In this document: positions 1,125 to 38,281 of the stretch, one piece after another
Layout: every line of letters begins with the position of its first letter
How positions within the stretch are numbered: position 1 is the first letter of the stretch
Assembly (NCBI RefSeq): GCF_002286985.1
Contig: NZ_NSKC01000012.1
Coordinates: 1-64,000 of the forward strand
From: Halorubrum salipaludis
GTDB lineage: Archaea; Halobacteriota; Halobacteria; Halobacteriales; Haloferacaceae
Direction of reading: 5' to 3'
DNA length: 64,000 bases
Notes under the pieces: generated by a model
Databases searched by the model: none
The model's input: the letters and a program-made list of their open reading frames with translations, nothing else
What the model was told of the DNA's origin: nothing
Made by a program: the position numbers and the translations under genes

Positions 1125-1799
1125 ATGTTCGAGTCTGAAGAAGATCTGCGTGAGGTTGCCCTCCCTTTACTCACAGAGAAACTAACCCACAAAGATGCCC
1201 ATCTCGTAGAAGAATTTTCATATAGCGGTGGCAGAACGGACTTAGTCCTTAGCTATGTTTCTGACAAGTACAAGCAGAGACGGGTCGAGAAATTGGGCGT
1301 AGGTATTCCGATTGAAGAGAAGCGACGTCTCAAAGTATTCCTACAGCTCCACAAGAAAGATGGAGATATTCGGAGAGAGAACTTTGTTCAACAATTAACC
1401 GGAAACACTCGAGACGAGCAGAAAACAATTGACTGGCTGATAGACAACAATTTCGTGGTGCAAGAGGGGGATCAAATCAGGACAAAGCCCTATCTGAGGC
1501 GTCATATCACAACATCAATCGCAGTTGAGCTGAAGCTAGAGAAGTGGCAGAAAGCTTTTCAGCAAGCTCTCCAAGGCCGAGCATATTCCGAGTACCAATA
1601 TGTTGTTTTAGATCACAGCCATGTTAATCGGGCTGTGAATGAAATTGATCTTTTCAAGAAACATGAGGTAGGTTTGATTTCTGTAACAGAGGGTGGTGAT
1701 TACGAATTGTACTATGAGCCGGAGAAGCAAACTCCCTTCTCGGAACTCAACGTGTGGAAATTGAATGAGACCACACTGTTACCCTCAGCCACCATGTAA
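1125..1799 (+). CDS. PD-(D/E)XK nuclease-like protein, first gene of a kinase/phosphoesterase cassette
   Basis: This 224-residue protein carries the elements of a PD-(D/E)XK nuclease fold: GGRTDLVL with Asp39, then AVELKLEKW with Glu136-x-Lys138, followed by a helix (KAFQQALQGRAYSEYQYVVL) that often closes this fold. The middle section (about 55-125) looks like a winged helix, so it may bind DNA before cutting. It is the first of four same-strand genes ending at 4614; the kinase gene starts 31 bp after its stop. Codon use is more A+T-rich than in most of the window, suggesting acquisition by transfer. Nuclease activity is inferred from the motifs. A DNA-binding regulator with an inactive nuclease fold is the main alternative. 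Confidence 0.7.
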   Translation: MFESEEDLREVALPLLTEKLTHKDAHLVEEFSYSGGRTDLVLSYVSDKYKQRRVEKLGVGIPIEEKRRLKVFLQLHKKDGDIRRENFVQQLTGNTRDEQKTIDWLIDNNFVVQEGDQIRTKPYLRRHITTSIAVELKLEKWQKAFQQALQGRAYSEYQYVVLDHSHVNRAVNEIDLFKKHEVGLISVTEGGDYELYYEPEKQTPFSELNVWKLNETTLLPSATM

Positions 1800-1830
1800 T
1801 TTAAGTTGTGACAGTTTATGTTTCTGACTA

Positions 1831-2694
1831 ATGCGTGATCGGCTTTCGTTACAACAGGTTCAAGGTGAACTTCCCCGATTCGATTTGGAGAAGAAGTTAG
1901 CATACGGAGGTCAGAAAGACGTTTTTCTGGGGGAATTTGAAGGCGAAGAAGTTGTCGTGAAGACAATCGCATTGGAAGAGCTTCAGCACGTAAAGCGTGC
2001 AGAGCTCGAGGTTGAGGTGATGAATGATATCGAGTCCCAGGTCCTCGTTGACCTGCGTATGCACTTCCCAGATCGTATTGAGGGGCAGGAAGTGCTGGTG
2101 TTAGTAGAAGAGTTTATTCCAGGGGATACTTTGAGGGAAGAGATTAACAAAAATGGGCCTTCCTTAGAACTTGGAGTTCGGGTTCTCCAGACTGTCTTGA
2201 ATAGTCTCAAAGAATTCGAGGAGAAAGAGTACGTTCACAGAGATATCAAACCGGAGAATATCATGGTTCAACCGGATGGGAGTATCAGACTATTAGACGT
2301 AGGCGTTGTACGAGCACTTGAAGGGTCTGACTTAACTCCTACAGATTGGGCTAGGTCCCCGGGAACAGTTGAATACTCATCGCCTGAGATGCTCGCTAAT
2401 GACAAGGATATTCAAAACGTTCGAACTGATTTCTTTTCTCTCGGGATAGTATTCTTTGAGGCTGTCACGGGAGTCCATCCTTTTGATGTTGAGGAGTTTA
2501 CGATTGAAGACGCGATTCAGAATAGCGTTCATCGAAAAATGGCAGATTTAGTTTCTCTCCCCTCGGAATTAGAGGGTCTGGAGCTATTCTTCGAACAGAT
2601 GGTTAGCTCAGATATTCATAGGCGTCACCGGACTGTAGAGATTGCACAGAAAGACCTTGGGCGAATTACGGAGGGAACTTCCTATGATGTTTGA
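1831..2694 (+). CDS. Hanks-type Ser/Thr protein kinase
   Basis: This 287-residue protein is almost entirely one eukaryote-like protein kinase domain, predicted to phosphorylate proteins on Ser/Thr in the cytoplasm. Visible motifs are the glycine-rich loop near 24-34 (AYGGQKDVFLG), the ATP Lys44 in VVVK, the catalytic loop YVHRDIKPEN at 135-143 with Asp138 and Asn143, and SPE at 184-186 in place of APE. The metal-binding DFG is DVG (156-158), a tolerated variant. There is no membrane segment or sensor domain, so input probably comes from neighbours. The next gene starts inside its last codons (ATG 2684), showing tight co-expression. Such free-standing kinases beside nucleases occur in antiviral systems, which is the likely setting here. 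Confidence 0.85.
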   Translation: MRDRLSLQQVQGELPRFDLEKKLAYGGQKDVFLGEFEGEEVVVKTIALEELQHVKRAELEVEVMNDIESQVLVDLRMHFPDRIEGQEVLVLVEEFIPGDTLREEINKNGPSLELGVRVLQTVLNSLKEFEEKEYVHRDIKPENIMVQPDGSIRLLDVGVVRALEGSDLTPTDWARSPGTVEYSSPEMLANDKDIQNVRTDFFSLGIVFFEAVTGVHPFDVEEFTIEDAIQNSVHRKMADLVSLPSELEGLELFFEQMVSSDIHRRHRTVEIAQKDLGRITEGTSYDV

Positions 2695-3928
2695 AAAACC
2701 CACTTACCTGATTCAGTTTGGGTACTCTGGGCAGACACTAGTACGTCGTGCCATGGACGACGATTATGCTGACGGCGTCATTTTAAGTCCATCCGACTAC
2801 GAATACGGTGATACGAAATCATTGGCTAGGGATGTCAACCGGAAAGACGGTGTTGTGTTGTTTGATCCACAGTACTATATCCCGAGGACTGAACGTCCTG
2901 CTTCTAATTCTTATCCATATTTCAAGCAATCTGGTGGAGACAACTTCGAAACAGTTGTCGTCACTAATAATAAAAATCGGCGGGAACTCTGCGAACAAAT
3001 ATGGGAGGTTCAACATCAAATAGATGTGGACGCTTACATCGCCCCTGCCCGCTTTCTGGATACGTTCTCTGATACAAAGCTGACACAGTGGGAGCTCCTG
3101 ACAAAGACTTTTGTCGAGGTGGTTGAAGACAAGGATCCTGGTGCGGAAATTTTCGCATCTCTACCGGTTGCTGGTGCTAGTATTAACGACGACGAGCAGA
3201 GATCGAAACTTCTGGATATCGTTACAAAAATCGACGTGACTGGATTTTACGTGTCGGTGGAGTATCCACGATACCGTCAGAATCCAATATTCGGGTTTGA
3301 AGAAGTGAAAGCGTATCTTGACCTATTAAAAAATCTAAGATACAATTGGTACGACGTGGTTCTTGGCCACTCTGATCAGATTGCACATCTAGGGTTCGGC
3401 TTAGGAATCAACGCTTTCGGATCGGGCCACTACAAGAACACACGGGCGTTCGACACGGATCGTTGGATACCACAAGATAGTGGTGGGGGTTCTGCGGGTA
3501 TCTACTGGTACTACTCAGAACCTCTGATGAACGAAATGCAGGTGGAGCAGGACATGCAGGCCCTATACAGTTCAAATTCGTTCTCTTTAGAAAAATTGCG
3601 CCTCAAGAACCCGACTTCTCCATTCGCACGAGAGTTGTTTGTCCGGGAACCAGAGGAACCTGAATGGACCTATAAAAATGATTCTTGGGACCACTACATC
3701 TGGTCTTGCCACCAGATCGCCAAAGAGTACAAGGGTCTCACACTAGAAGAGCGGATCAATCGAACGCAAGAGAACCTCAGAAATGCAGCTGAGATATATT
3801 CGGAGATTGAGGAAGCGATTGGTCCACGTGAAAACATTCAATCCGAAACTTATGAAGATTGGATGGCTGCCTTCGATTCAACACTGACCGACAGAGATGT
3901 TAATGTGATTAGTCGCGTGATGCCCTGA
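2684..3928 (+). CDS. Unknown 414-aa protein in the kinase cassette
   Basis: I recognise no family. The start chosen is ATG 2684 (or 2687), preceded by GGAGGG, and it overlaps the kinase stop by 11 bp; a longer frame from 2642 would intrude further into the kinase gene. The protein has alternating hydrophobic strand and helix stretches, for example IDVDAYIAPARFLD, TGFYVSVEYPR and WYDVVLGHSDQIAHLGFGLGINAFGSGHY. These suggest an alpha/beta fold, perhaps a barrel, with clustered His, Gly, Trp and Tyr in its second half. The C-terminal third is helical and charged. Its stop shares an A with the phosphoesterase start (TGATG at 3926-3930), so it is an integral member of the operon, possibly the target or sensor of the kinase. 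Confidence 0.75.
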   Translation: MMFEKPTYLIQFGYSGQTLVRRAMDDDYADGVILSPSDYEYGDTKSLARDVNRKDGVVLFDPQYYIPRTERPASNSYPYFKQSGGDNFETVVVTNNKNRRELCEQIWEVQHQIDVDAYIAPARFLDTFSDTKLTQWELLTKTFVEVVEDKDPGAEIFASLPVAGASINDDEQRSKLLDIVTKIDVTGFYVSVEYPRYRQNPIFGFEEVKAYLDLLKNLRYNWYDVVLGHSDQIAHLGFGLGINAFGSGHYKNTRAFDTDRWIPQDSGGGSAGIYWYYSEPLMNEMQVEQDMQALYSSNSFSLEKLRLKNPTSPFARELFVREPEEPEWTYKNDSWDHYIWSCHQIAKEYKGLTLEERINRTQENLRNAAEIYSEIEEAIGPRENIQSETYEDWMAAFDSTLTDRDVNVISRVMP

Positions 3929-4614
3929 TGAAAATCGGAGTGATTTCGGATGTACACTCAAACTCTGTTGCTCTTGATGCGGTTCTGAGCCAACCGGACA
4001 TTCAGTCAGCAGATACAATCTATTGTGTAGGTGACTTAGTCGGATACTATTCTCGACCCAATGAAGTAGTGGAAAGAATTCGTGAAGAGCGTATTCCATC
4101 TGTGATGGGAAACCACGATAGTGCTGTCGTGGAATCCACACCATCATCATTTTCCCTACATGCAAAACGGGCAGCAGACTGGAACAGGAGATCGCTCACA
4201 GAACGTAATCTTGAGTTCTTGGACGCACTTCCGCTGAAAATTAGAGAATTTGTTAACGATCGAGACCTGTTAGTAGTCCATGGTTCACCGAAAAATCCAC
4301 TTTCTGAATATATCTTCAAAGAAGATGTTGATGAGCTCTTTCTGGATTTCTATTTTGATGTCCCCCCCGAAGTCATCATCTTAGGTCATACACATCATCC
4401 CTTTGCCAAGGTTGTTAGAGATACGCTCGTAGTTAATCCGGGTAGTGTGGGGCAACCCAGAGACCGGGACCCAAGAGCATCTTACGGAATTATCGACCTC
4501 GACTCGCTTAATTGTCAAATCCATCGTGTAGAATATGATATCGAGAAGATTGCTACGGATACGTCTCAAGAGCTACCAAAGGCACTGAGTGACAGACTTT
4601 ACGAAGGTCGTTAG
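3928..4614 (+). CDS. Calcineurin-like metallophosphoesterase (YfcE/MJ0936 type)
   Basis: This 228-residue protein has all dimetal phosphoesterase motifs: DVH (Asp8, His10), GDLVG (Asp36), GNHD (Asn62, His63), VHGSP (His118) and GHTH (153-156). It also shows the family's conserved VNPGSVGQPRD near the end. Members hydrolyse phosphodiesters or phosphomonoesters, including cyclic nucleotides and phosphoproteins in some cases; the substrate here is unknown. It overlaps the preceding gene by one base, so it is made together with the kinase. A kinase and a phosphoesterase in one operon suggest opposing steps, or a signal made and removed. It is convergent with the next gene, with only 4 bp between them. 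Confidence 0.85.
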   Translation: MKIGVISDVHSNSVALDAVLSQPDIQSADTIYCVGDLVGYYSRPNEVVERIREERIPSVMGNHDSAVVESTPSSFSLHAKRAADWNRRSLTERNLEFLDALPLKIREFVNDRDLLVVHGSPKNPLSEYIFKEDVDELFLDFYFDVPPEVIILGHTHHPFAKVVRDTLVVNPGSVGQPRDRDPRASYGIIDLDSLNCQIHRVEYDIEKIATDTSQELPKALSDRLYEGR

Positions 4615-4618
4615 AATA

Positions 4619-4813
4619 CTACACTAGCTCCACATTAAAGGCCCTTTTACCCCAACTGGTCGTTTCTATCTGATATATAACTTTTTTCTCCACTTGTATG
4701 TCATCGCCATCAAAATCTTCAAAGTGGAAGTATATTTGCTCAGCCTCTTCTTTTGGTGAGATATATCCGTAACTTCGCCTCTGATGTGCTGCTTTTATTT
4801 TCCCTTTCTGCAT
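4619..4813 (-). CDS. Cold-shock-domain-like OB-fold protein
   Basis: This 64-residue protein has the pattern of a minimal cold-shock domain: MQKGKIKAAHQRRSYGYISP matches the first strands with the RNP1-like aromatic pair, IYFHFEDFDG matches the FVHF (RNP2) strand, and KRAFNVELV the final strand. Such proteins bind single-stranded RNA or DNA. The typical GFGFI is altered to SYGYI, so it is a divergent member. It lies tail-to-tail with the metallophosphoesterase gene and shares the A+T-rich composition of the cassette, so it may have travelled with it. Confidence 0.65.
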   Translation of the reverse strand: MQKGKIKAAHQRRSYGYISPKEEAEQIYFHFEDFDGDDIQVEKKVIYQIETTSWGKRAFNVELV

Positions 4814-5289: not shown

Positions 5290-5979
5290 ATGACTGGCAA
5301 GCAATTTGAATCGGAGATACTGAGATTCGAGCAAGCAAATGTGTATGATGGGGATCGCAGATTCTCGAACCGTGGCCAACTGAATAAGGGATTTGTACGC
5401 ATTCTGGAGCAGCATAAGAGCAAATATGGTGGTGGTGGGTGTACCAGAGATACTGAACATCCGATTGGCGGTGCGGCAGAGATGTTTCTCACAGGTTATG
5501 ACGGAGATTCTCCGGCTGACTCTACCGTATTTACTACCGAGATAGAGCTCGGTGAGGGTGACGCCGCTACTATACGAACTTTTGACAACGAATTCCGCGT
5601 CAAGTTCTTCGGACTCTCTATTGAACGTCCATCGAGCGATCGTATTCGAAACAACCAGAGCGCATACGTAGCCATCGATGTCTGGGATGGTGATGACGGA
5701 CTATGGAAGGAAGTTGAATTCCAACAAGGGTTCAACGAACCTCTAGAGTGGACCTATCCTCAAGGTGGGACTCTGAGAATTGTCGTTGACAGTGCACCCG
5801 GTCGCGACGCAGAACAAGATTTCAAATGGCTAATTGAGGGGGGCCTGTCTCCCGCCGAGGCTCTAGATTACTGGATAGTGGAGGTAATGAACGAGACCCA
5901 AGCCAACTGGGCGGGTCATCGAAACAAAACACGACAGGCAATCTCGAAGAACGTTCAGTCGGCAAAGTCGAAACTGTAG
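5290..5979 (+). CDS. Unknown protein with C-terminal helix-turn-helix
   Basis: This is a 229-residue protein. Residues 1-165 form a beta-rich region without a recognised family (for example YVAIDVWDGDDGLWKEVEFQQG). The end, LSPAEALDYWIVEVMNETQA followed by NWAGHRNKTRQAISKNVQSAKSKL, fits a sigma-region-4-like HTH seen in haloarchaeal accessory proteins. It may sense or bind something through the N-terminal part and DNA through the end. The start at 5290 follows the palindrome at 5255-5269; an ATG at 5280 is closed by a near stop. Composition resembles the preceding A+T-rich cassette, so it may belong to the same island. Confidence 0.6.
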   Translation: MTGKQFESEILRFEQANVYDGDRRFSNRGQLNKGFVRILEQHKSKYGGGGCTRDTEHPIGGAAEMFLTGYDGDSPADSTVFTTEIELGEGDAATIRTFDNEFRVKFFGLSIERPSSDRIRNNQSAYVAIDVWDGDDGLWKEVEFQQGFNEPLEWTYPQGGTLRIVVDSAPGRDAEQDFKWLIEGGLSPAEALDYWIVEVMNETQANWAGHRNKTRQAISKNVQSAKSKL

Positions 5980-6056: not shown

Positions 6057-6728
6057 CTAGTACGGCGACGCCGTCTCAACAGTCGGACGGAACACGCGAT
6101 CTGAGCCGGACTCCTCTCCTCGGCCGCCAGAGACGAACGAGATCTTCTCGCGCTCTCTCTCGGCAGCTGCCGGGCTCATCTCGCCGAGGTAGCTGTCGCG
6201 GAAGGTAGGCCAGTCTTCCCAGCCGCCCCAACTCATCACGACTGCCGGGAGAACGCCGCAGTCCCAGAGTAAATGTCCTCCCCAAGTACGTCGGAGGTCG
6301 TGGACGTCGAGGTAGGTCCATCCCTCATCACCGGTCTCGGCATACCTTCGTTCGGCGGCACGCTTCACCCAACGATAGATCGAGTTTGGCTCGACGTCGA
6401 CGATCGGTTCATCGGGATTGTGGTCGTAGGAGATCGTCCGTACCGAGCTGGCGAGTTCCTCGGGGATCGGTGTCTCGCGATACTTCCCGCGCTTCGCGTA
6501 GTCGTTCCAGACACGAAGGAATCCGTCAGGAGCGTGCGTGAAGTCGTTCGCCGTGACGCTCGCGATTTCCTCGCGCCGGAGACCGGCCTGCGAGCCGAGT
6601 CGAAAGGCAATCTCTTGCTGCGGAGACTGCGCCTCATCGATTAGAGCTCCGACCTCGTCGTTCGCTTCGGTCTGGTTGAGCCAGACACGCTTCGCATCTT
6701 CTCGCTCCGGGTAGTCGTCGAGACGCAT
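6057..6728 (-). CDS. Short tyrosine recombinase/integrase
   Basis: This 223-residue protein is a tyrosine recombinase catalytic domain without the usual N-terminal core-binding domain. AGLRREEIASV carries the first catalytic Arg, HDLRRTWGGHLL is the His-x-x-Arg box, MSWGGWEDWPTF holds the Trp/His position, and SYLGEM has the nucleophilic Tyr. Full-length XerA-like proteins have about 280-400 residues, so this may be a compact archaeal form or a truncated one. It lies at the right edge of the A+T-rich island (1.1-6.0 kb), where an integrase that inserted the island would be expected. No tRNA or obvious att repeat is visible beside it. Confidence 0.8.
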   Translation of the reverse strand: MRLDDYPEREDAKRVWLNQTEANDEVGALIDEAQSPQQEIAFRLGSQAGLRREEIASVTANDFTHAPDGFLRVWNDYAKRGKYRETPIPEELASSVRTISYDHNPDEPIVDVEPNSIYRWVKRAAERRYAETGDEGWTYLDVHDLRRTWGGHLLWDCGVLPAVVMSWGGWEDWPTFRDSYLGEMSPAAAEREREKISFVSGGRGEESGSDRVFRPTVETASPY

Positions 6729-8351: not shown

Positions 8352-10253
8352 ATGTCTCTGGAACCCCAGTGGAATGAACGCCTTTCAAAAACAGGTCGGC
8401 CCGAGCAGCCGCTTCGGGCGAACACAGTCCGCATCCGTATGGAACAGACCATCTCTCGAGGGATCACCACAGACGTCCGAGCACGAGGCCGATATTTCTC
8501 CAGCTTCTGTTGGGCGATGTATCGTGTCTCTAATTCATCTATCACCGCTGATCTGCCGAAGGCAGACAAACGGAATCTTCTCGAAGGAATCGAAGAGATC
8601 CTAGGACTGGCTAGCTATTATCGGCAGTTGACCAAAGAGGAACAGCAAGACGGCTTATCGGGCGTCACCGGAAGTTCGAACATTTCAGACGATTCATTGT
8701 ACGATGGCGAGACAATCGATCTAGATTCTTTCGCACTCTTGGATAACAGCCCATACGCTATCAGGCGATTTCAATCCACCCTGGGGAACTTTTTTTTGAA
8801 GCAAGGCGAGTTCGCACTCACGGCGGCTGGAGATGAGCTTGCACAAGGCCTTGATGAAATCGCGGGGCAGTACTTCGAACCGATAGTATCCGCCGTCAGA
8901 GACGATGAGGTCTCCATTGAGTTACTCGACGACCTTGCCGATGCCTTCACCCACCAAGGCATTTTCACCAGCACCGACAACGAACACGAACACGACACAC
9001 TCCAGCGAATTCTTTTCGGTGTGGTCAGCTGGGACGAACGGGCTCAAACGGTCAAATTGGACGAGTGGCCATCAACTTTAGACATCCCCGTTCGAGAGCA
9101 CTATCGATACATCGGGTCCGACGAACAGTACGCAAACGATCTGCAAGACTCAGTTTGCAGCAAGATCCAGTATCTGCGTCGAGCATGGTGTCTCGCTATC
9201 CTTCGGGCCCATCAAATCCTTGCGACAACGGATGACGGGTCGACCCTCGCTTACGATAAGCACGATATCGATCGGTTTAGCCCTTTCCGACCGCTGGGAC
9301 GTGTCTACCATCTGCAGGGACAGTTGGCCCATGTACTCCGGGCGCAACTATGGGGGCTATCGAAACATCTCGAACGCGAAGCGCCTGAAGGCGTGCCTCG
9401 TGAAAAATTACTCAACCAAATCGAATCAGCTCCGATCGCAGCTGAAATTGAGGCATCGCTTCAGTCCAGTACGACACTCAAGGATGACCGACTCAGTCAG
9501 GGTGCCGTCACGCGGGAGTTGCTTGTCGCCGGTACGGTGGCCCCATCACAATACGATGTCACCGTTCCAGAATCAACTGATGTAAAGTCCGAAACGTTAG
9601 CTGATCTTCGTCGGTGGCTCAACTCGAATATGGTCGGGACTTGGCGACCAACGACTGATGATGAGCTAAACGGACGCACACTTATCGAAGCGACAGAGAA
9701 CAGCCGTGGCGCGGTCGAATCAGCCACCACTCGTCCTGAAGCTATCGATGCCCTCGGTCGGTTGATCGGACGCAGCACAGTCCAACTGGTCGCTGCCATC
9801 GAACAGTATCAACAACTGGTCGAAAAGAACGAGCTCCTCAAGCGGTATGTCGAACAGCGGTTCGGTGATCGCCAGTCATCACTCGTCCAGACCAGTCGCT
9901 ACATCGAGCGCCTCGACCAAGATATTTCATTAGCAACGCTTGCACGTCGGCTCTTCGACGAGCGAGTCATCACGATTCACGACTATGTCGTTCAAGATCG
10001 CCTCGGGAGTGGCTCTATCTCACTCGTGTTTGGGACTGGTGCAGATGCCGGAGAATACAGCGGCGGTGGCGACAACATGCTCTTTGCTGCTGGCGGCGTT
10101 GCCCGCCCAAGTACCGGTAATCTTCGGTACAGGGATCTTCGTCGCCTCATGCGGGATGCTGGATTATTAAGATATCAATCGGACACCGGACTCTGGGTCC
10201 CGACAGTCGATGGAGAAGCTGTGATCAATCGGTTTCGGGGGGAGTACTCGTGA
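8352..10253 (+). CDS. Unknown 633-aa protein, first gene of PLD/AddAB-like cassette
   Basis: I recognise no family. The N-terminus contains GRYFSSFCWAMYRV. The long middle is helical and includes paired-helix stretches such as QLAHVLRAQLWGLSKHLERE. Near 510-560, QRFGDRQSSLVQTSRYIERLDQ looks like a coiled segment. The C-terminal 90 residues (RYRDLRRLMRDAGLLRYQSD) look like a winged helix. Its stop overlaps the GTG start of the PLD gene by four bases (10250-10253), so the two are translated together. The start codon is uncertain because the first 20 residues are weakly haloarchaeal. It could be the scaffold or recognition subunit of a complex with the downstream nucleases. Confidence 0.7.
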   Translation: MSLEPQWNERLSKTGRPEQPLRANTVRIRMEQTISRGITTDVRARGRYFSSFCWAMYRVSNSSITADLPKADKRNLLEGIEEILGLASYYRQLTKEEQQDGLSGVTGSSNISDDSLYDGETIDLDSFALLDNSPYAIRRFQSTLGNFFLKQGEFALTAAGDELAQGLDEIAGQYFEPIVSAVRDDEVSIELLDDLADAFTHQGIFTSTDNEHEHDTLQRILFGVVSWDERAQTVKLDEWPSTLDIPVREHYRYIGSDEQYANDLQDSVCSKIQYLRRAWCLAILRAHQILATTDDGSTLAYDKHDIDRFSPFRPLGRVYHLQGQLAHVLRAQLWGLSKHLEREAPEGVPREKLLNQIESAPIAAEIEASLQSSTTLKDDRLSQGAVTRELLVAGTVAPSQYDVTVPESTDVKSETLADLRRWLNSNMVGTWRPTTDDELNGRTLIEATENSRGAVESATTRPEAIDALGRLIGRSTVQLVAAIEQYQQLVEKNELLKRYVEQRFGDRQSSLVQTSRYIERLDQDISLATLARRLFDERVITIHDYVVQDRLGSGSISLVFGTGADAGEYSGGGDNMLFAAGGVARPSTGNLRYRDLRRLMRDAGLLRYQSDTGLWVPTVDGEAVINRFRGEYS

Positions 10254-12718
10254 ATCTGATCGACGCACTCGGTGAGTCCGAAGCTGAGTACGCCGTGTGT
10301 ACGACTTATCCATTCGAGCCGCTCTTTTTCAGTAACTATGCGATCGACTCTCTGCAGGACGCTGGAGTCGCAACACCGGTCGTCCTCATGGATGATCATC
10401 AATACGAAAAGCTCGCACGCCAGCAGCAACTCACGAGTCGTGCTATCGGCCAGCATTATTACTTGGAGCCTGTCGCGGTCGAAGATACGTTCCACCCAAA
10501 GGTCACGTTCCTCGCTGGAGAGGCGGCCTGCCATGTGAGTGTTACGTCTGCGAATATCACCCTTGGCGAGTATACGACGGCCGCTCAGTTGGGACAGACT
10601 GCGACTGTCGCTGCCGACTCGGAGCAAGTCACACCAGAACAACTCGCAGTGACACAGGATGTCCGATCGTTCATCGATCAGCTCTCTCAGGAGTACGTCT
10701 CGGGTCGTGACCCACGGACTGAGATACAGCGGGCAATCCAAACGACGGAATGGCTCGAAGAGAGAACACCCTCTCGGACTGTTCAGGGTGGCTTTTTCCA
10801 TAACTTGGAGACCCCGATCCTTGAGCAAGTCCGTGACCGGCTTGGAGACGTCACCACTGCCACGCTGTTTGCCCCGTTCTTTGGTAGTAAGACGACGCTG
10901 TCGGAGATCGACGCGACCATCGATGCGGACCACTACGAGATCTTGGTTTCAGATGGGAATACCCATCTCGATCCAGACGCAACTGTCGATGCTTTCGGTG
11001 ACTCGGTAACGTTCCGACCACTCGACCACGACACAGCCCGCTGGATACATGCCAAGGGGATCGTCTTCGAGGGTCCCTGGGGAACGGCAACGCTCTACGG
11101 CAGTCCGAACATCACCGGTCAGGCACTGCTCAAGACAGGCGCGACGGGCAACCTCGAAGCTGCTCTCCTCCACTACGAAGAGACCGACAGTTCGGGCCCT
11201 GAACTCTGGAGCCAATCGTCGTTCCCAGCGGTTCCCGGCGCAGAGCGGGATCCAGACAAGTTTGATTTTGCCGACTACGCTATCTCTGGCCCGGGCGATT
11301 CATCGCCGACCATTTCGTTAGTGGATGCCCGTGTCGAACAGGTCGAGGACGACGAAATCATTGTTCGGCTCGTCGCACCAGCGGTCGACGATGGAACGGA
11401 GTTGGCCATCGAATCCCTCTCCGAGAAGCGATCCGACATCGTCTGGACTCGAGACGCCGATGATAAAGAAGATGGGATAACTCTTCGACTCCCGGAATCG
11501 TGGGCTCAGGCCATCGTTTGCTTGGATGTCCCTGACGAAGGTAGATCCAATTATCGACAGATTACAACCGAGCCAACAAAGGGAACTCGAAAGGTCGGGG
11601 ATGTCCTCCGGGACGGCGGGCGCGAATCCATGCAATCACTGGTTGATGAGACTCTCTTCCTTGGAGTCGGTATCGCTCCGGGCGTTCTTACCGAAGCCGT
11701 CTCTCGTCTCTCAGAAAAGCACGAACAGCAAACAGACGAAGTCAAACAAGAACAACAAACGGAAATTAAGGACAGTGAGTCAGCATTTTCGACCGGGATC
11801 ACAAGCGTCACCAGTACGAGCCGCAAGCCCCACCTCGGCGTCAAGGACGGTATGGACTATGCTGAAAAGCGGATCGAATCGATCCTAGAAAACCCACCGA
11901 CGGTAGTATCTGTCGAGGAACTCATCGACCACTTCGATAATCTCTGGTACTACGTGACCAGAGGGTTGATCAGGTCGTCGCTCGCTACGCAGCTTGATCA
12001 AGTGGAAGACGATGACATCACGTTCGAAACCAATCTCAACGTGGGCCGCCTCCACTCGCTGTGTGCGAAGCGGATCTCGAAGATTTTCAGATCTCGTTAC
12101 TTCCGCCGAATCCGTATCTACGTCAACCAGATCCACTCGTTACACCCTGAGTCGACTGCAGAGGTATTAGAGGACGACAAGTTATCTGACGTCTTTGTTA
12201 TTTATCCTGCGGTTACGTTGGCTCTGATGGAGTGGCATAACGAATCATTCGTCGAGCGGTTTGAATTCGTTCGGCAATATCACGAGGCGATGACGATCGC
12301 CAATCCGCTGCTGGGTGAACTGCTGATCGAGGGCGAGCAAGTCAAAACCCGTCTCAGAGAGCACGAATCGACCCTGGAGGACCAACTCTCAGCGTTAGGC
12401 GACCGTATGGGGAGGGAACTCGCGCTCCCAGGTGAGTTCATGCCCGGTCTCGAGATCTTGTTCTACGGGTTCTGGTATCGGGAGCTCGCGAGGATATCTG
12501 ATCAAGGGCTCTTCGACAATGAAGAGATATTCGAGCGATACGAGCCAGCAGAACTGGCTGCAATGGCTCGATTAGCGGTTGCTGGCAAAGATCGCATCCA
12601 GAGTAGTTCTTCATACGGGGCCCTTAAAAAAGGCCGATTTGACTCTGTCGTCCGACTCACCCAGGGCCGGAGTGATCCGACTCCGCAACTGCAGACTCTC
12701 ATCGATAAGGGGCAGTGA
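10250..12718 (+). CDS. PLD-like nuclease with two HKD-type motifs and long C-terminal region
   Basis: The protein is 822 residues. The first third is a phospholipase D superfamily fold: FHPKVTFL (His82, Lys84) followed by VTSANITLGEY, and WIHAKGIVFEG (His267, Lys269) followed by YGSPNITGQALL. In this superfamily the two His-x-Lys motifs form one active site that cuts DNA, RNA or phospholipid; neighbours point to nucleic acid. The remaining 500 residues are mainly helical, with a Gln/Glu-rich linker near 490-505, and match no family I know. The GTG start is fixed by the 4-bp overlap with the gene before. DISARM also carries a small PLD protein, but this one is much larger and has no methylase nearby. 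Confidence 0.75.
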   Translation: MNLIDALGESEAEYAVCTTYPFEPLFFSNYAIDSLQDAGVATPVVLMDDHQYEKLARQQQLTSRAIGQHYYLEPVAVEDTFHPKVTFLAGEAACHVSVTSANITLGEYTTAAQLGQTATVAADSEQVTPEQLAVTQDVRSFIDQLSQEYVSGRDPRTEIQRAIQTTEWLEERTPSRTVQGGFFHNLETPILEQVRDRLGDVTTATLFAPFFGSKTTLSEIDATIDADHYEILVSDGNTHLDPDATVDAFGDSVTFRPLDHDTARWIHAKGIVFEGPWGTATLYGSPNITGQALLKTGATGNLEAALLHYEETDSSGPELWSQSSFPAVPGAERDPDKFDFADYAISGPGDSSPTISLVDARVEQVEDDEIIVRLVAPAVDDGTELAIESLSEKRSDIVWTRDADDKEDGITLRLPESWAQAIVCLDVPDEGRSNYRQITTEPTKGTRKVGDVLRDGGRESMQSLVDETLFLGVGIAPGVLTEAVSRLSEKHEQQTDEVKQEQQTEIKDSESAFSTGITSVTSTSRKPHLGVKDGMDYAEKRIESILENPPTVVSVEELIDHFDNLWYYVTRGLIRSSLATQLDQVEDDDITFETNLNVGRLHSLCAKRISKIFRSRYFRRIRIYVNQIHSLHPESTAEVLEDDKLSDVFVIYPAVTLALMEWHNESFVERFEFVRQYHEAMTIANPLLGELLIEGEQVKTRLREHESTLEDQLSALGDRMGRELALPGEFMPGLEILFYGFWYRELARISDQGLFDNEEIFERYEPAELAAMARLAVAGKDRIQSSSSYGALKKGRFDSVVRLTQGRSDPTPQLQTLIDKGQ

Positions 12719-12793
12719 CGGTCGACGGTTCCCCCCTACAGTAATTCATCCTTTCGCTGGATCCGGTGCTTTCAGGTCCCAATTTGTATGTGT

Positions 12794-12822
12794 CCTGCTC
12801 TACTTAGTAATTCCAGAGCAGG
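12794..12822. terminator. Stem-loop in the gap inside the cassette
   Basis: CCTGCTCT (12794-12801) and AGAGCAGG (12815-12822) form an 8-bp stem with a 13-nt loop, 76 bp after the PLD gene stop. It could be a terminator, a processing site or an operator separating the two halves of the cassette. The 390-bp gap (12719-13108) holds no gene I can support; it contains a 25-bp sequence (12972-12996) repeated near 51840. Confidence 0.3.
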
Positions 12823-13108
12823 TGAATACTGATTCGTCCGTATCCCTTGTAGCGTACGTAGCCGAACGACCCGAGCACGTCGTCGAGTGCTGTACTCACC
12901 CTCTGTATCTCGCACGACATTCCTGACAGGTGGCAAGTAAGTCTGCGGGTTGACCGGTACGTGAGTTCCTTGTACTGAGCAATTCGTGAGTCCCCTAGAC
13001 TACCATTTCGAGGAGCGATCTCTACGTGAGAGCTTAATGGAATCGCAGATACTCAGAGTGGATAACATCCTAACAAAGATTTAACCGATACCGCCGACTC
13101 CACGTGTT

Positions 13109-15694
13109 GTGCCATTTCCCCGCGCAAAATCATCACGCCAACTCTACGACGAAGTCAAAACGTACGACCGAGTGATTACTCCAGACGGACCGCTCGCGAG
13201 TGCCCTCAACCGCCAGCTTGATCGGTCACACCTCGGTCCCTTTGCTATTCCACCACGTCGCCTTGCGGTCGGTCGCCGGCAAGAATCTGAGGACCGACTC
13301 GCGTTCCTCGGCATGATCGCAAATGAAGATATTTCGTGGAAACGGTGCGCCTACGCAGTCGGGAATATCCTCCAGTGTTGGGAACACCAAGGATCCCACG
13401 AGGCTATCTTCGAGTACGAGGGCTACATCGACGAGGCTACCGAACGAGCTGTTGAGCGAATCGGTGATCTTGAAACGGCATCGATGAAGCTCACAAACGA
13501 CACTATTGATTCAGATCTCGATGTGGTCGTCGTCGAGCCGAAGATGCTTACCCAACTCGAACGAGCGTATCTGCCTACTGAGTACGATACGGTCAGTCTC
13601 TTTGCCGACACAGAGTTTGAGCTGCCGCCGTTTCGCATCCATGATTCACCGACAGCGATCATCGAAACGGTGGTGGATGCGGTCACCGAGACAAACGCCG
13701 AAAACGTCGGGATTGTCCTCGATCAGGAAAGCGAGTACTCGCCGCTCATTGAGTCCGCACTCGAGGCAGCCGACATCCCATTTTTCGGTGGACCAGGCTT
13801 TACTGATCGCAGCGAACACCGCTTGTTCCTTCATCTCCTCCGGACTGCCCACCGTGGAACTGACACTCGAATCAGCGAGATTCGATCGCTGCTGACAGCT
13901 TTTGACTGTGATGTGGCCGACCGTGAGGCAGACAAGCGGCTCCACGAACTCGATGATGAAAATCTGTCGTGGCTGATCGACTTCTGTCACGAGATCCAGG
14001 AGTACACGTTTTCGGACGCGCTCTCGACGTTCGAACACCGTGCCGACGACACACTCGATGCCTTTCGAACGGAGCTAGAAGAGCTTGGGATCGCCGACGA
14101 GTCCGTTACGGAAGCGCGCCTTGACGAGCTGTCGTTCTATCTACAGACGTATGAGGTCCCTGTTGACCGGGATAACGAAGGCGTTCTGCTCGCCGACGCG
14201 AAGTCGGCATCATACGTCGGTCGTGAGGTTGTCTTCTATCTAGGTCTCGATGATCGATGGACCCACTCGGCACCACGTCGTCCGTGGGTTGATCAGGATG
14301 CTCAGTTCACGCGGAATCTCCAGAGCTTCCAGTTACTGTTACAGAGCGGGAGCCAGCAACACTATCTCGTTCAGGATGCAACCGGCGGATCGCCGGTTAC
14401 CCCGTGTCTGTACTTCGAAGAGCTCCTTGAACGAGAGTACGATCGTTTCTCAGAACTGCCGTCTACCACCCATCAACTCCGATCTGAACCACATGATGGG
14501 GCTGTATTCAACACAGAGTCAGTTGACGTGTCTCCTGACCCAGTCGAGACGATCAGTAAGTCGAGTCTCAACACCTACGTGAACTCACCCCGAGACTACT
14601 ACTTCAGCCGGATCGTCGACGGCCCAGAGAAAGAGTATCTCACTGAAGGCAACCTGTTCCATGACTTTGCGGAGTTCTACGTCACCCATCCTGCGGTCGT
14701 CGACGACGCGGCGCTGACAGAAGTCGTTGATCTCATTCTTGGTGAAGTCCATCCGCTGATCCGCTCCGTTGATGAACAGACTCGCCGCACTGAGTACCGT
14801 GTAAGCCTCGAAACAATCGTCTCGTACCTCGACGACAACCCCCCGACAGACGGAGCGTTCCTTACACCCTCCAGCAGTACTGAGAACGCTATTGCCGACT
14901 ACTTCGGGTACGATATCGAGTCGCCGGTAACTGAACGCCGGTTTGTTGATGAGGATCTTGGTATCAACGGAATGATCGACCTTGTCCAGTCGCAAGCCGA
15001 GCTGCTGGATTACAAAAGCGGGAGTGAGAACGACGCCAATTCAATTGTCCAAGACGCCGCGATTGATGAACCATCCGACGAACCGGATTTCCAAGCATTG
15101 CTATATCTCACCTACTGGCGCTCACAAACGCCCGCTCAACAGCTCTCGTTCACGTTCTTTTACGTCACTGAACTCGTCGACGACGCCATCGCCGGTGACG
15201 TCGATATCGACGACGCGCTGACGACAGTGACATACTATCCCGGATCTCTCACAGATCACGTCCGAACAGAGGAGTTCTTCGAGTACCTTCGTGAGGAGGG
15301 GGCGAACAAGTGCCAGAAGACCCTCTCGAAGATCGACTATCAGACGTACGCTGCTCTCTTCGATGCCGCACCACTCGTTGAGACAACTGACAGCGACGAA
15401 CTCATCGAGTCAGAGTTCGGCCGGACGATGATTGAACGACTCGAGGCAGAGATTGGAGAGTACAAGTACGTAACGACGGGGAGCAAACAGGTCATGCGGG
15501 AAATCGCCCGCCAACAGAAAGGTGCGTTCTTTAAATCTGACCTGGATACATTTGAGTCGTTTGTTGAGGAGCGACTGACAGAGCTCAACCGACGTCGTAC
15601 AGGTGACGAGCCGTTTCCCATTGAGGGACTTGCCGGCGAGCCGAATTACCGGCGGGTGGATAATCGTGATTTGCTCTTGGAGGGTGACCAATGA
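13109..15694 (+). CDS. AddB-like protein with RecB-family nuclease domain
   Basis: This 861-residue protein resembles the AddB/RexB subunit of helicase-nucleases. The N-terminal two thirds have the inactive helicase scaffold (for example EVVFYLGLDDRWTHSAPRRPW and QLLLQSGSQQHYLVQDATGG) but no Walker A. The C-terminal third is a RecB-type PD-(D/E)XK nuclease: GNLFHDFAEFY near 514, GMIDLV near 620, LLDYKSG near 633 and QALLYLTYW near 665. The usual cysteines of the AddB iron-sulfur cluster are not evident. The GTG start at 13109 follows a 390-bp gap with its own promoter potential; an A+T-rich stretch lies about 30 bp upstream. Its stop overlaps the next gene by four bases. Haloarchaea do not normally use AddAB for recombination, so a defence role is plausible. 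Confidence 0.75.
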   Translation: MPFPRAKSSRQLYDEVKTYDRVITPDGPLASALNRQLDRSHLGPFAIPPRRLAVGRRQESEDRLAFLGMIANEDISWKRCAYAVGNILQCWEHQGSHEAIFEYEGYIDEATERAVERIGDLETASMKLTNDTIDSDLDVVVVEPKMLTQLERAYLPTEYDTVSLFADTEFELPPFRIHDSPTAIIETVVDAVTETNAENVGIVLDQESEYSPLIESALEAADIPFFGGPGFTDRSEHRLFLHLLRTAHRGTDTRISEIRSLLTAFDCDVADREADKRLHELDDENLSWLIDFCHEIQEYTFSDALSTFEHRADDTLDAFRTELEELGIADESVTEARLDELSFYLQTYEVPVDRDNEGVLLADAKSASYVGREVVFYLGLDDRWTHSAPRRPWVDQDAQFTRNLQSFQLLLQSGSQQHYLVQDATGGSPVTPCLYFEELLEREYDRFSELPSTTHQLRSEPHDGAVFNTESVDVSPDPVETISKSSLNTYVNSPRDYYFSRIVDGPEKEYLTEGNLFHDFAEFYVTHPAVVDDAALTEVVDLILGEVHPLIRSVDEQTRRTEYRVSLETIVSYLDDNPPTDGAFLTPSSSTENAIADYFGYDIESPVTERRFVDEDLGINGMIDLVQSQAELLDYKSGSENDANSIVQDAAIDEPSDEPDFQALLYLTYWRSQTPAQQLSFTFFYVTELVDDAIAGDVDIDDALTTVTYYPGSLTDHVRTEEFFEYLREEGANKCQKTLSKIDYQTYAALFDAAPLVETTDSDELIESEFGRTMIERLEAEIGEYKYVTTGSKQVMREIARQQKGAFFKSDLDTFESFVEERLTELNRRRTGDEPFPIEGLAGEPNYRRVDNRDLLLEGDQ

Positions 15695-18540
15695 GCGACG
15701 TTACGCCAAACCCGGAGCAACGCGACCTCATTGAGTCAACCGACGGCCTGTACCTCGTCGACGCTGGTGCTGGCACCGGGAAGACCTTCACTGTCACCCG
15801 GCGGTATGCGAACATCGTCGATCAGGACGGGATCGATCCGTCTGATGTCTTGTTGGTAACGTTCACGAACAACGCAGCTGAGGAGATGCGCGACCGGATC
15901 GTGCGGAACAGCGAGTACGGAATGCGGGAGCTCTCGAACGCCCCGATCCAGACGTTCCACTCGTTGGCACACGATATTCTCGACGAACACGGCCATGATG
16001 CTCCGACATATCTCGGCGTGGAGGAGACGATCACCGGCTCGACGCGGATCATCGAAGACGATATCATCGAACAGGCGCTGTTTCGAGAGTTCATCGGCCA
16101 GTTCATCGACTCGCACCCTGAGTACAACGAGTTCTTCACAGCGATCTCAGAAACGAAAGAACTGCTCGATCTCATCAAAGAACTTTCTGCGAAGGGTGTC
16201 TTTCCCACCGAAACCGGCTGGTACCGCGACGGTGAATCACACCTCGACGGTGACTTTGCGGCGTTTGAGACGCTGTTCACCGATATAAATCAACCTCGAA
16301 ATGGTGGCGGCAAGCAGTCAAAGCTCCGGTCGAAGCTCAGCAAATATGGGAAAGAGAAGACCTACCTCCCAGAGGCACCTGAGAAATGGGAGCTTCGCGG
16401 GAACGGCAAACAGATTCCAGCGGATGTCGCTGGACGCGTTTTCGAGGACGATCGAACAGCACTCAAGCAGTTCGTCCACGATGTGTATCACGCCTACCTT
16501 GAGTTTGCGCTTCGACGGAACTACCTGAACTTCGGGTTCCTTCAGCTGTTTGCGTTCGTCCTTCTGTGTGAAGACCACGATCTTCGAGAGCGACTGGGCT
16601 ACGAGTATGTGATGGTCGACGAGTTCCAGGACTCCAGTGAGATCCAGTTCAAACTTATGCTTCTTCTGGCCGGCACAGAGAATATCTGTGTGGTCGGTGA
16701 CTGGAAGCAAAGCATCTACAGCTTCCAATACGCCGACGTCGACAACATCCGAGAGTTCGACGAGCGACTCGACCGATTCGCCGAAGAACTGAATCGGGAC
16801 GCAGATCGCGTCACATTCCCGACGACAACGGCTGCCAGCAAACAACTGACACGGAACTACCGGTCGACCCAATCTATCCTACGGTTCTCGACACAGGCGC
16901 TGACGGCTCGTGCGACGAACAGTGAGTTACTCGATGTTGAGGCAATCTCCGAGGCGGTCACACGGTTGAAGGCGGACACAGACCATGACGAGAGCCGTAT
17001 CGAGGCGCTCACGAGTGAGGATGAACATGAGGCGATTCTCGCGAAAATCGACGACATCGCTGACAATGATGACTACGCCGTTGAGGGTGACGATGGCGAG
17101 TACCGCGCGCCGATGTACGGTGATATCGCCGTATTGACCCGAACCCGCGATTTCGGACGGGACATACTCGACACGGCAAGCGAATACAACCTGCCGATGG
17201 CCTACGAGGGAGGGATCGAGGTCTTCCGAACCGATGTTGCGAAATTGCTGTTAGCGTGGCTCCGTATTCTCGAACGTGACGCCGACCGTGGTTGGGCACT
17301 CGTCTTAGAAGAGGCCGGATACACAATCGACGAGGTGAAAGCGATCACCGATCGCGGGGCGTACCCTGAAGCGATGGTTACCTTCCGTGAAAACCTTCGG
17401 GAGATGGAGACATTCGGGGGTGTCGCCCGTCGCGTGTTCGATCGGTACGACCGGAGTGGCCCAACCGCGGACGTTGTCCTTGACACTATTCAGTCGGTCC
17501 ACGGGACGACAACGTTCACTCGTGGAGAGCTCATCCAGTTTATCGAAGCCGCGATCGAAGACGGCAGCACCCATGAGGTCGACGCTGGTGCGGGAACGAA
17601 TGCGGTGACTGTTCAGACCATCCACGCAACGAAAGGGCTCGAATATCCGATTGTCATCCTCGCGAATATGAACACGAACAAGTTCCCATCAACCGGTGGC
17701 AGCGGGAGCGATATCGCGTACACAGACCCAATCGGACTCCGACAGAGAAAGGTGTACTCTGAGGAGGCTCACGATGTCCCACACGTCTACGACAACTGGC
17801 AGACACACGTTCTCAATAAGTGTCTCTCCCAGAACTACGATGAGGAACGCCGACTGCTCTACGTGGCTATTACGCGTGCTGAGAGCCATGTCATTCTAAC
17901 CGGCGGTGAGAATCCAAATGTGTTCCTTGACGAACTCCCCGTTAATATCGAAACAGTCGACCCAGATCTGTCGGCCTTCAGTTCAGTAGATGACGAGTCT
18001 TCACCGTTTACGGTTGACATTCCGGATCCAGATGGGCCAGCAAGCTATTCCCCGCATACGTTCATCGACGATGCCGTTTTCGAAGGGGACACCGGTGGTC
18101 GAGGAATGGAATTTGGGTCGGAAGTTCACGAGTTCGCAGAGAGGTATGTGCTCGAGGAGGCTGTCGACACCGACGGCAACACTGATAAAGAGAATGTGAA
18201 GAAGTTCTTAGATTCACTCGATGGCGAGAAGAAAGCCGAAATCGATGCGTTCCTTCCGTTGACTGTCGATGACAAGGAGGTGACGATCGGTGGGATCATC
18301 GACTTGCTCCATATTACGCCTGACCAGGTCGATATCATCGACTACAAAACTGACCTCACCACCCACGCCGAAGACGAATACGAGAAACAGCTCAGTATTT
18401 ATTACCACGTCGTTGCCGACCAATATCCGGATCGGTCGGTCTCTGCTTCGATTTTCTACACCGATGATGGTAACCGACGCAGGATCACCCATCTCAGCAA
18501 ATCCGATCTCAGAGAGATGGTCCGAACATACCGTGCGTGA
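15691..18540 (+). CDS. UvrD/AddA-like ATP-dependent helicase-nuclease
   Basis: This 949-residue protein has a complete superfamily 1A helicase set: NPEQRDLIES (Q motif), GAGTGKT at 26-32, VDEFQD at 309-314, VVGDWKQSIYSF near 334-345, LTRNYRST, TIHATKGLEYPIV and ERRLLYVAITRAE. It ends in a RecB-type nuclease domain with GSEVHEFAERY near 807, GGIIDLL near 866 and IIDYKTD near 882. The order matches AddA, so it should unwind and degrade DNA from ends together with the AddB-like partner, whose gene it overlaps (ATGA at 15691). Unlike chromosomal RecBCD/AddAB, it travels with a PLD nuclease and an unknown protein, which suggests a defence or plasmid-maintenance complex. Confidence 0.9.
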   Translation: MSDVTPNPEQRDLIESTDGLYLVDAGAGTGKTFTVTRRYANIVDQDGIDPSDVLLVTFTNNAAEEMRDRIVRNSEYGMRELSNAPIQTFHSLAHDILDEHGHDAPTYLGVEETITGSTRIIEDDIIEQALFREFIGQFIDSHPEYNEFFTAISETKELLDLIKELSAKGVFPTETGWYRDGESHLDGDFAAFETLFTDINQPRNGGGKQSKLRSKLSKYGKEKTYLPEAPEKWELRGNGKQIPADVAGRVFEDDRTALKQFVHDVYHAYLEFALRRNYLNFGFLQLFAFVLLCEDHDLRERLGYEYVMVDEFQDSSEIQFKLMLLLAGTENICVVGDWKQSIYSFQYADVDNIREFDERLDRFAEELNRDADRVTFPTTTAASKQLTRNYRSTQSILRFSTQALTARATNSELLDVEAISEAVTRLKADTDHDESRIEALTSEDEHEAILAKIDDIADNDDYAVEGDDGEYRAPMYGDIAVLTRTRDFGRDILDTASEYNLPMAYEGGIEVFRTDVAKLLLAWLRILERDADRGWALVLEEAGYTIDEVKAITDRGAYPEAMVTFRENLREMETFGGVARRVFDRYDRSGPTADVVLDTIQSVHGTTTFTRGELIQFIEAAIEDGSTHEVDAGAGTNAVTVQTIHATKGLEYPIVILANMNTNKFPSTGGSGSDIAYTDPIGLRQRKVYSEEAHDVPHVYDNWQTHVLNKCLSQNYDEERRLLYVAITRAESHVILTGGENPNVFLDELPVNIETVDPDLSAFSSVDDESSPFTVDIPDPDGPASYSPHTFIDDAVFEGDTGGRGMEFGSEVHEFAERYVLEEAVDTDGNTDKENVKKFLDSLDGEKKAEIDAFLPLTVDDKEVTIGGIIDLLHITPDQVDIIDYKTDLTTHAEDEYEKQLSIYYHVVADQYPDRSVSASIFYTDDGNRRRITHLSKSDLREMVRTYRA

Positions 18541-37108: not shown

Positions 37109-38281
37109 TCAAAACAGCGACTCCAACTCCCCGTCACTATCCATCAGCTCCGAGAAACGGCCCTCACTCTCGTCAGTGATCTCCCCGAGATTCTGTTGTG
37201 CTTCGATTGCGACTTGCTGGAGCTCTTTCACTCGCGGGACGTTCGTCACGCCACCGAGCAGTACGAGTGCCGCGACCGTTCCCTCACCACGTCGTGGATA
37301 GTCACCACCACGGACCTCCATCGATCCGGTCTGTTCTTCGAGCCACTTGCGACCGTGCTCGATTCCCTTCCGGTTGAGATACTCTGGCGGACCGGCAACG
37401 ATGAGCAGCGCCCGCTCTGTCCCGCTCACCTCACAGGGCAGCGTGAGCCGACCGAGTGTTGCTTTCCGGACGAGACTCGTGATTCGGTTGGTGGCCTCGG
37501 TACTGTCGATCCCGTTATCTGTATTGCCACGGAGTCGCGAGAGCAATCCCTTTCGCTCTGGCTCGTCCACCTCGACGTCGGCGTAGCCTAGCGAAGAGAT
37601 TCCGCCCCCTTTGAGCGTATTGATGATCTCCGAAGAGTCAACCACGCTTTCAGCGACATCGCTTCCCTCGGTTATCTCGCCCGCACTGAAGAGCACGCCG
37701 AACCGCTGGACCAACTCCTCGTTGATCGCATCGAACCCTTCGCCAACGGATTCACCCGAGCTGCGCCAGGCGTCGTTGTCGAATAGCATGAGATTGTCCA
37801 CCTCATCGACGAACGTCTTGAGCGATCGAGCGGCGTTCAGCGTGTAGATCCCACCCTCATCGCTCCCGGGCAGGATACCAAGCCCGTACACTGGCTCGGT
37901 GTAGATTCGCTTGAGGTTCTTGGCAATCACGGGTGCCCCACCCGACCCCGTCCCGCCACCAAGCCCCGCAACGACAAGGAACGCATCGATCTCGTGGACT
38001 GGCACCGAGTCGAGTGCTCCTTGGATCTCGTCAATATCCTCCTCGGCCACTTCTGCGCCCAACTCGTTATCTGCTCCCACGCCGTGTCCCTTCACTCGCG
38101 ATTGCCCGATCAGGATCCGGCGGTCTGTCGGGAGGTGGTCGATTCCCTGGAGATCTGCTTTCGCCGTGTTGACGGCGATCGCTCCCCGAACGATATCAGC
38201 GCCTGTCCGTGCGTCGTAGGCCAGGAACTCGTCGACCACCTTCCCACCCGCCTGCCCGACCCCGATCAATGCGAGTTTCAT
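37109..38281 (-). CDS. cetZ: CetZ-family tubulin-like GTPase
   Basis: This 390-residue protein is clearly CetZ: GVGQAGGKVVDEFL at the start, AIAVNTAKADL, GHGVGADNELGAEVAEEDID, the GTP motif AGLGGGTGSGG near 105-115, GLGILPGSDEGGIYTLNAAR and the C-terminal GRKWLEEQTGSMEVRGGDYP. It ends in the conserved ELESLF-type tail. CetZ proteins form GTP-dependent filaments that control cell shape and motility in haloarchaea. A TATA-like TTTTATAC lies about 35-40 bp before the ATG, implying a leaderless mRNA. Its neighbours (RHH protein, repeat array) are those of a partition locus, so it may segregate DNA rather than act as the shape determinant. Sequence alone fits both. Confidence 0.9.
   Translation of the reverse strand: MKLALIGVGQAGGKVVDEFLAYDARTGADIVRGAIAVNTAKADLQGIDHLPTDRRILIGQSRVKGHGVGADNELGAEVAEEDIDEIQGALDSVPVHEIDAFLVVAGLGGGTGSGGAPVIAKNLKRIYTEPVYGLGILPGSDEGGIYTLNAARSLKTFVDEVDNLMLFDNDAWRSSGESVGEGFDAINEELVQRFGVLFSAGEITEGSDVAESVVDSSEIINTLKGGGISSLGYADVEVDEPERKGLLSRLRGNTDNGIDSTEATNRITSLVRKATLGRLTLPCEVSGTERALLIVAGPPEYLNRKGIEHGRKWLEEQTGSMEVRGGDYPRRGEGTVAALVLLGGVTNVPRVKELQQVAIEAQQNLGEITDESEGRFSELMDSDGELESLF

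Follow-up and report, generated by a model that had tools for sequence, protein, structure and literature searches.

Protein kinases recur in antiviral systems, but the way in which a kinase controls the effector is seldom clear. PD-T4-6 and Stk2 act as single-gene systems, and TerY-P combines a kinase with PP2C and vWA. KKP is a prophage module of two kinases and a PP2C phosphatase (PfkA-PfkB-PfpC) which provides antiphage defense by a switch tripped by a phage protein (PMC11341870). Homologues of tRNA-guanine transglycosylase (TGT) occur in Dpd and BRC defense operons (PMC12839542), and a metallophosphatase is required for antiphage defense in the DefensePredictor systems DS-8 and DS-9 (PMC13092281). 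Here, we describe a cassette near the start of a 64,000-nucleotide stretch of Halorubrum salipaludis DNA (contig NZ_NSKC01000012.1; referred to as the window), which encodes a nuclease (P1), a serine/threonine (Ser/Thr) protein kinase (P2), a predicted TGT-fold protein (P3), and a metallophosphoesterase (P4).

The cassette resembles KKP in that prophages can carry it, in having a Ser/Thr kinase and a phosphatase, the latter a PP2C in prophage L025, and in the prospect of a phosphorylation-based antiphage switch (PMC11341870). KKP, however, has two kinases, which as a pair constitute the toxin, and neither a nuclease nor a TGT-fold protein, whereas the cassette has one kinase that is always accompanied by the nuclease and P3, and its usual phosphatase is a metallophosphoesterase, with PP2C in L025 only. 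With Dpd and BRC it shares a TGT-fold protein within a candidate defense operon (PMC12839542), but it has a kinase, lacks DpdB/DpdC, PglZ, BrxC, and HerA genes, and its P3 is without the classical catalytic Asp. DpdB/DpdC-type partner families were absent from the cassette and its adjacent genes, and no PglZ, BrxC/PglY, or methyltransferase component was present among the genes scanned for BREX/Pgl membership. The likeness to MADS is confined to a mad6-type kinase-domain match, and that to PD-T4-6/Stk2 to a kinase domain of the same broad family, which in the cassette is tied to a nuclease and P3. DS-9 pairs a metallophosphatase with a HAD phosphatase, and the text searched mentions no kinase/TGT-fold/nuclease set (PMC13092281). 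CBASS and TerY-P were also considered and dropped. An earlier note on this DNA, made from sequence alone, knew of no system with this gene set; profile searches bore this out, with no matching named system in PADLOC-DB, NCBIfam, Pfam, or PHROGs, and no published kinase/TGT-fold/nuclease system was found in the literature searched, mostly open papers with few subscription papers or preprints. Kinases, phosphatases, and nucleases are known themes in defense, and the cassette is, within this partial coverage of the literature, a member of no named system found.

Distribution, linkage, and mobility of the gene set

P3 was found at 19 distinct loci, in ten haloarchaea, three probable methanogens, one elusimicrobium, one planctomycete, one Polaromonas plasmid, and three phage types. 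At all 19 it is accompanied by adjoining genes for the kinase and the nuclease, an arrangement far beyond chance, and the homologues are thus not the rare neighbors whose discovery the earlier note had named as evidence against it. The order is P1-P2-P3 at 15 loci, P2-P3-P1 at three (one split over contig ends), and P2-P3 with a convergent P1 at the remaining one. Searching with P3 yielded nine true carriers among 391 Halobacteria genomes, in all of which P1-P2-P3 are adjacent in identical order, with P4 as well in seven; a tenth weak match (G348/L019, E 5e-4) was discarded as an Arg-rich spurious open reading frame. A phylum-wide search added the three genomes outside the class Halobacteria, and from scanning genome contigs came Halobellus rufus, whose cassette includes P4, and metagenome-assembled genomes of Elusimicrobia and Planctomycetaceae. 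The plasmid search added Polaromonas naphthalenivorans pPNAP03, and scans of viral contigs the three phage types, while a P3 search of phage records gave no match. The earlier description of a four-gene cassette therefore holds in that a multi-gene set is conserved, but the core consists of the three genes P1, P2, and P3, the phosphoesterase being accessory.

The core genes are also inherited together. Pairwise distances of P1, P2, and P3 correlate with r 0.86-0.90 (18 loci; permutation p about 2e-4), and those of P4 correlate with the other three with r 0.74-0.88 (eight loci; permutation p over all comparisons about 2e-4 to 2e-3), values which in part reflect common ancestry of the hosts. The cassette nevertheless does not track its hosts: P3 of genome G291, from the genus of the window, is 45% identical to the window's P3 yet 71% identical to that of Natribaculum, which belongs to another family. 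Between the window genome and G291, by contrast, the chromosomal phosphoesterases differ very little.

Composition and surroundings indicate mobility. The core has a GC content of 0.454 against 0.558 for the remainder of the window, in agreement with the A+T-richer composition noted earlier, and at each of the 15 loci measured its GC content falls below that of the flanks. Integrases lie near the cassette in the window, L015, and L016, with relatives of the window's enzyme adjoining the cassette at the latter two, and in L017 as judged by eye. In all three phage types the cassette is carried as cargo: in the Mu-like phage L025, in phage L028 with methyltransferase-type genes on one side and a sigma-like gene on the other, and in phage L030/L031 inserted between tail genes.

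Structure and active sites of the encoded proteins

P3, which the earlier note had left as an unknown 414-aa protein, is a TGT-fold TIM barrel and a likely sensor or adaptor. AlphaFold2 modeling on alignment A10 (eight diverse homologues) gave a TIM barrel with a predicted local distance difference test score (pLDDT) of 79.5 and a predicted template modeling score (pTM) of 0.85, whereas the single sequence gave no usable model (pLDDT 32). The top 11 Foldseek matches in the Protein Data Bank (PDB) were all TGTs (E 2e-5 to 1.6e-4), and comparison with TGT by VIA gave a Z of 21.2 with a root-mean-square deviation of 3.7 over 309 residues. At the level of sequence, P3 gave nothing above noise in Pfam, NCBIfam, or PADLOC at E<=1 and has no PHROGs model, its profile matched no PDB sequence, and a PF01702 search of its own genome returned two other loci only. 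The register between P3 and TGT comes from a weak local profile alignment with 14 haloarchaeal TGTs (E 0.2-0.3), global profile alignment having given none. In this register, LFDSAAY, the motif that holds the TGT nucleophile where strand 8 ends, aligns with AF[GAC]SGHY of P3, for instance as AFGSGHY. The nucleophile Asp is absent in 18 of 18 P3 sequences, with small residues (Ala, Gly, or other) at the position, and so is the zinc motif CxCxxC. Q11, G13, D61, P62, P121, Y189, L218, and G248 are invariant in the same 18 sequences, and S35, Q63, N252, R254, F256, and H337 are present in 17; Q11, D61-P62-Q63, Y189, and R254 are among those that mark the pocket. By the strand order of the predicted structure D61 lies at the end of strand 3, the place of the TGT general acid/base Asp. 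Since the nucleophile and the zinc motif are missing while the pocket residues are invariant, P3 has probably lost classical base exchange and kept a ligand pocket. Compared with the TGT superfamily (TGT, DpdA), P3 is thus alike in fold but differs in these residues, in lacking a PF01702 match, and in its gene neighbors. Separately, the haloarchaeal genomes G002, G033, G070, and G136 carry extra TGT-family genes, some of them paired and with PF01702 scores well below tgtA, which are possible DpdA-like DNA-modification loci.

The kinase and nuclease retain their catalytic residues throughout the loci. In P2, the residues of an active kinase (K44, HRD138, and D156) are invariant, and the nearest PDB structures are PknB and StkP. 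The kinase is never found alone at these loci; its match to the mad6 profile covers the kinase domain only (97 of 460 bits, far below the NCBI cut-off), and a weak PglW match is likewise confined to that domain. P1 matched no family in Pfam, NCBIfam, or PADLOC at E<=1 beyond noise, its profile found no PDB sequence, and a single weak PHROG match led to a family of unknown function. The assignment as a nuclease, which the earlier note had also made, is based on the motif: P1 has the D...ExK active-site motif of PD-(D/E)XK enzymes, with D39, E135, K137, and Q147 invariant in nine haloarchaeal homologues and the planctomycete, and the D...ExK...Q pattern is retained in the bacterial, phage, and methanogen versions. 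Winged-helix matches occur in the homologues of L025 and L024, and the insert of P1 spans about residues 60-125; the short P1 of Polaromonas and the methanogens (143-169 aa) lacks the insert but retains the motif. Of the active-site residues proposed earlier, Lys44 of the kinase and His63 of the phosphoesterase proved right, whereas the nuclease Glu136 has to be replaced by Glu135. The P1 family is wider than the cassette, because winged helix-turn-helix PD-(D/E)XK members without kinase or P3 occur at L080:6142-6900, L081:4182-4976, and L085:6873-7817, some of which adjoin an integrase. A P1-like protein of another haloarchaeon (L079:5973-6608, + strand) has lost the ExK motif (AAVQVYSGDW) and is perhaps an inactive regulator.

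P4 scores above the cut-off of yfcE, has a further match in the lambda NinI-like Ser/Thr phosphatase family, and is nearest in structure to 3rqz (E 2e-46); its metallophosphoesterase residues are D8, H10, D36, N62, H63, H118, and H156. The kinase and YfcE-like identities given in the earlier note are confirmed. All nine carrier genomes tested also encode, on the chromosome, a phosphoesterase with about 40% identity to P4. The cassette copies form one clade apart from the chromosomal ones (support 1.0), and P4 is co-inherited with the cassette in eight of ten haloarchaea, L017 and L018 lacking it. In prophage L025, a PP2C gene (L025:4990-5733, - strand; PP2C_2 E 4e-9, PADLOC candidate PDC-M21C E 7e-15) directly follows P3 in convergent orientation. 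This replacement of P4 by an unrelated type of phosphatase argues that P4 reverses the kinase, and is the best evidence for its acting on a phosphoprotein. The separate clade and this PP2C lend weight to the idea, already in the earlier note, of a reversible kinase/phosphatase signal. PDC-M21 may perhaps be the KKP system.

Proposed function and alternative explanations

Phage cargo, patchiness, mobility, and gene neighbors point to defense or superinfection exclusion as the suggested function of the cassette. The neighbors include a type IIG-like/DrmMI-like enzyme beside L020, a type I restriction-modification (RM) methyltransferase near L022, an Mrr-like nuclease with a PDC-S11 gene beside L012, and an E1-like gene near L018. 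KKP offers a direct precedent for a kinase/PP2C switch borne by a prophage (PMC11341870). On the leading explanation, for which belief and doubt are evenly balanced, the cassette is a mobile, probably antiviral module in which a kinase/phosphatase-gated nuclease works with a TGT-fold sensor or adaptor. P1 would be the effector, a winged-helix PD-(D/E)XK nuclease cutting DNA upon release, and P2 together with P4 (PP2C in one phage version) would form a phosphorylation switch acting on P1 and/or P3, in the on or the off direction. P3, a barrel without classical TGT catalysis but with an invariant pocket, would serve as sensor or adaptor by binding an infection signal in the form of a nucleobase, nucleotide, or nucleic acid and relaying it to the kinase-nuclease pair. 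It is conceivable, with doubt slightly ahead, that the cassette represents an immune system of a new type, spread over archaea as well as bacteria and temperate phages: a transglycosylase barrel put to new use would recognize a base or nucleic acid linked to infection and would govern the nuclease by way of the kinase/phosphatase switch. A kinase, a nuclease, and a sensor-like protein are tied together within about 3 kb across very distant lineages. If this proposal is true, the TGT fold, known for 7-deazaguanine insertion, would be convertible to a signaling or sensing part, and a function would be given to two families without a profile in Pfam, NCBIfam, PADLOC, and PHROGs (P3, and P1 save for its weak PHROG match).

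Several observations weigh against the antiviral module. The defense neighbors were picked by eye without a background control and are suggestive, and the matches of P2 to PD-T4-6 and mad6 are of a kind that kinases give in general. No phosphatase was seen in the operon of two haloarchaeal and most bacterial cassettes, so that P4 is either dispensable or supplied in trans. The link between P3 and TGT is structural, profile alignment by itself being weak, and the loss of the nucleophile is read from alignment register and strand order.

An unlikely but surviving alternative is a toxin-antitoxin-like addiction or stabilization module, in which a toxic P1 is neutralized by the kinase (with P3) through phosphorylation or binding and re-armed by the phosphatase, any antiviral effect being secondary. 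The compact operon, mobile elements, and patchy spread agree with this, as does a distant sister set, present in two haloarchaea, that includes a SocA/Panacea antitoxin-domain protein but lacks a kinase; yet the size of three or four genes, the invariant P3 pocket, and the RM neighbors suit a sensing defense system at least equally, and the sister-set relation is remote. These sets (L086:5091-7269, - strand; L087:5966-8152, + strand) comprise a SocA/Panacea protein of 168 aa, a short P1-like PD-(D/E)XK protein of 137 aa, and a P3-like protein of 431 aa whose alignment to P3 has an hhalign E of 4e-5, and by sequence are a possible sister system of the cassette.

Less probable still is an RM-like system in which P3, like DpdA, exchanges or modifies bases as an active enzyme and marks self nucleic acid, P1 cuts unmarked DNA, and the kinase regulates P1. 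The fold shared with DpdA, the invariant pocket, D61 in the place of the general acid/base, and the TGT homologues of Dpd and BRC (PMC12839542) would fit; the lack of Asp at the strand 8 nucleophile position and of the zinc motif, together with the absence of any precursor-making, DpdB-, or DpdC-like gene within the cassette, would not. Kinase, phosphoesterase, and winged-helix nuclease could also serve repair, and all nine genomes have a related phosphoesterase as an ordinary part of the chromosome. An ordinary stress or DNA-repair signaling operon without a role against viruses is nevertheless improbable for a cassette that is rare, patchy, low in GC against its flanks everywhere, phage- and plasmid-borne, and more divergent within a genus than across families.

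Layout of the locus and other features of the window

The four open reading frames and their junctions (P1/P2 +31 bp, P2/P3 -11 bp, P3/P4 -1 bp) are as the earlier note gave them, and its integrase is confirmed. The window opens right at a contig end (G000:C4:1), and the left island border lies outside the sequence.

Table 1. Genes of the cassette and the nearby integrase, with positions in the window.
Feature	Position	Strand	Details
P1: PD-(D/E)XK nuclease, winged-helix-like insert	1125..1799	+	224 aa; D39, E135, K137, Q147
P2: Ser/Thr protein kinase	1831..2694	+	287 aa; K44, HRD138, D156 (DVG); Pkinase E 2e-29
P3: TGT-fold TIM barrel	2684..3928	+	414 aa; start ATG 2684; AlphaFold2 + Foldseek/VIA
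P4: YfcE-like metallophosphoesterase, putative cassette phosphatase	3928..4614	+	228 aa; Metallophos_2 E 5e-27
Short tyrosine integrase	6057..6728	-	Phage_integrase E 6e-9; mobile-element context, outside core

The genes to the right of the cassette (a cold-shock protein at 4619-4813 and the gene at 5290-5979) had no relatives at the other loci and were excluded from the set. A second four-gene candidate defense operon occupies 8352-18540 (+ strand) and encodes an unknown protein of 633 aa, an 822-aa protein with a weak ZacB match, an 861-aa protein with PDDEXK_1, and a UvrD-type helicase of 949 aa; Wadjet was dropped for this region, which holds a different helicase/nuclease set. The gene at 37109-38281 (- strand), whose product begins with MKLALIGVGQAGGKVVDEF, has the look of a tubulin/CetZ-type GTPase, as judged by eye alone.

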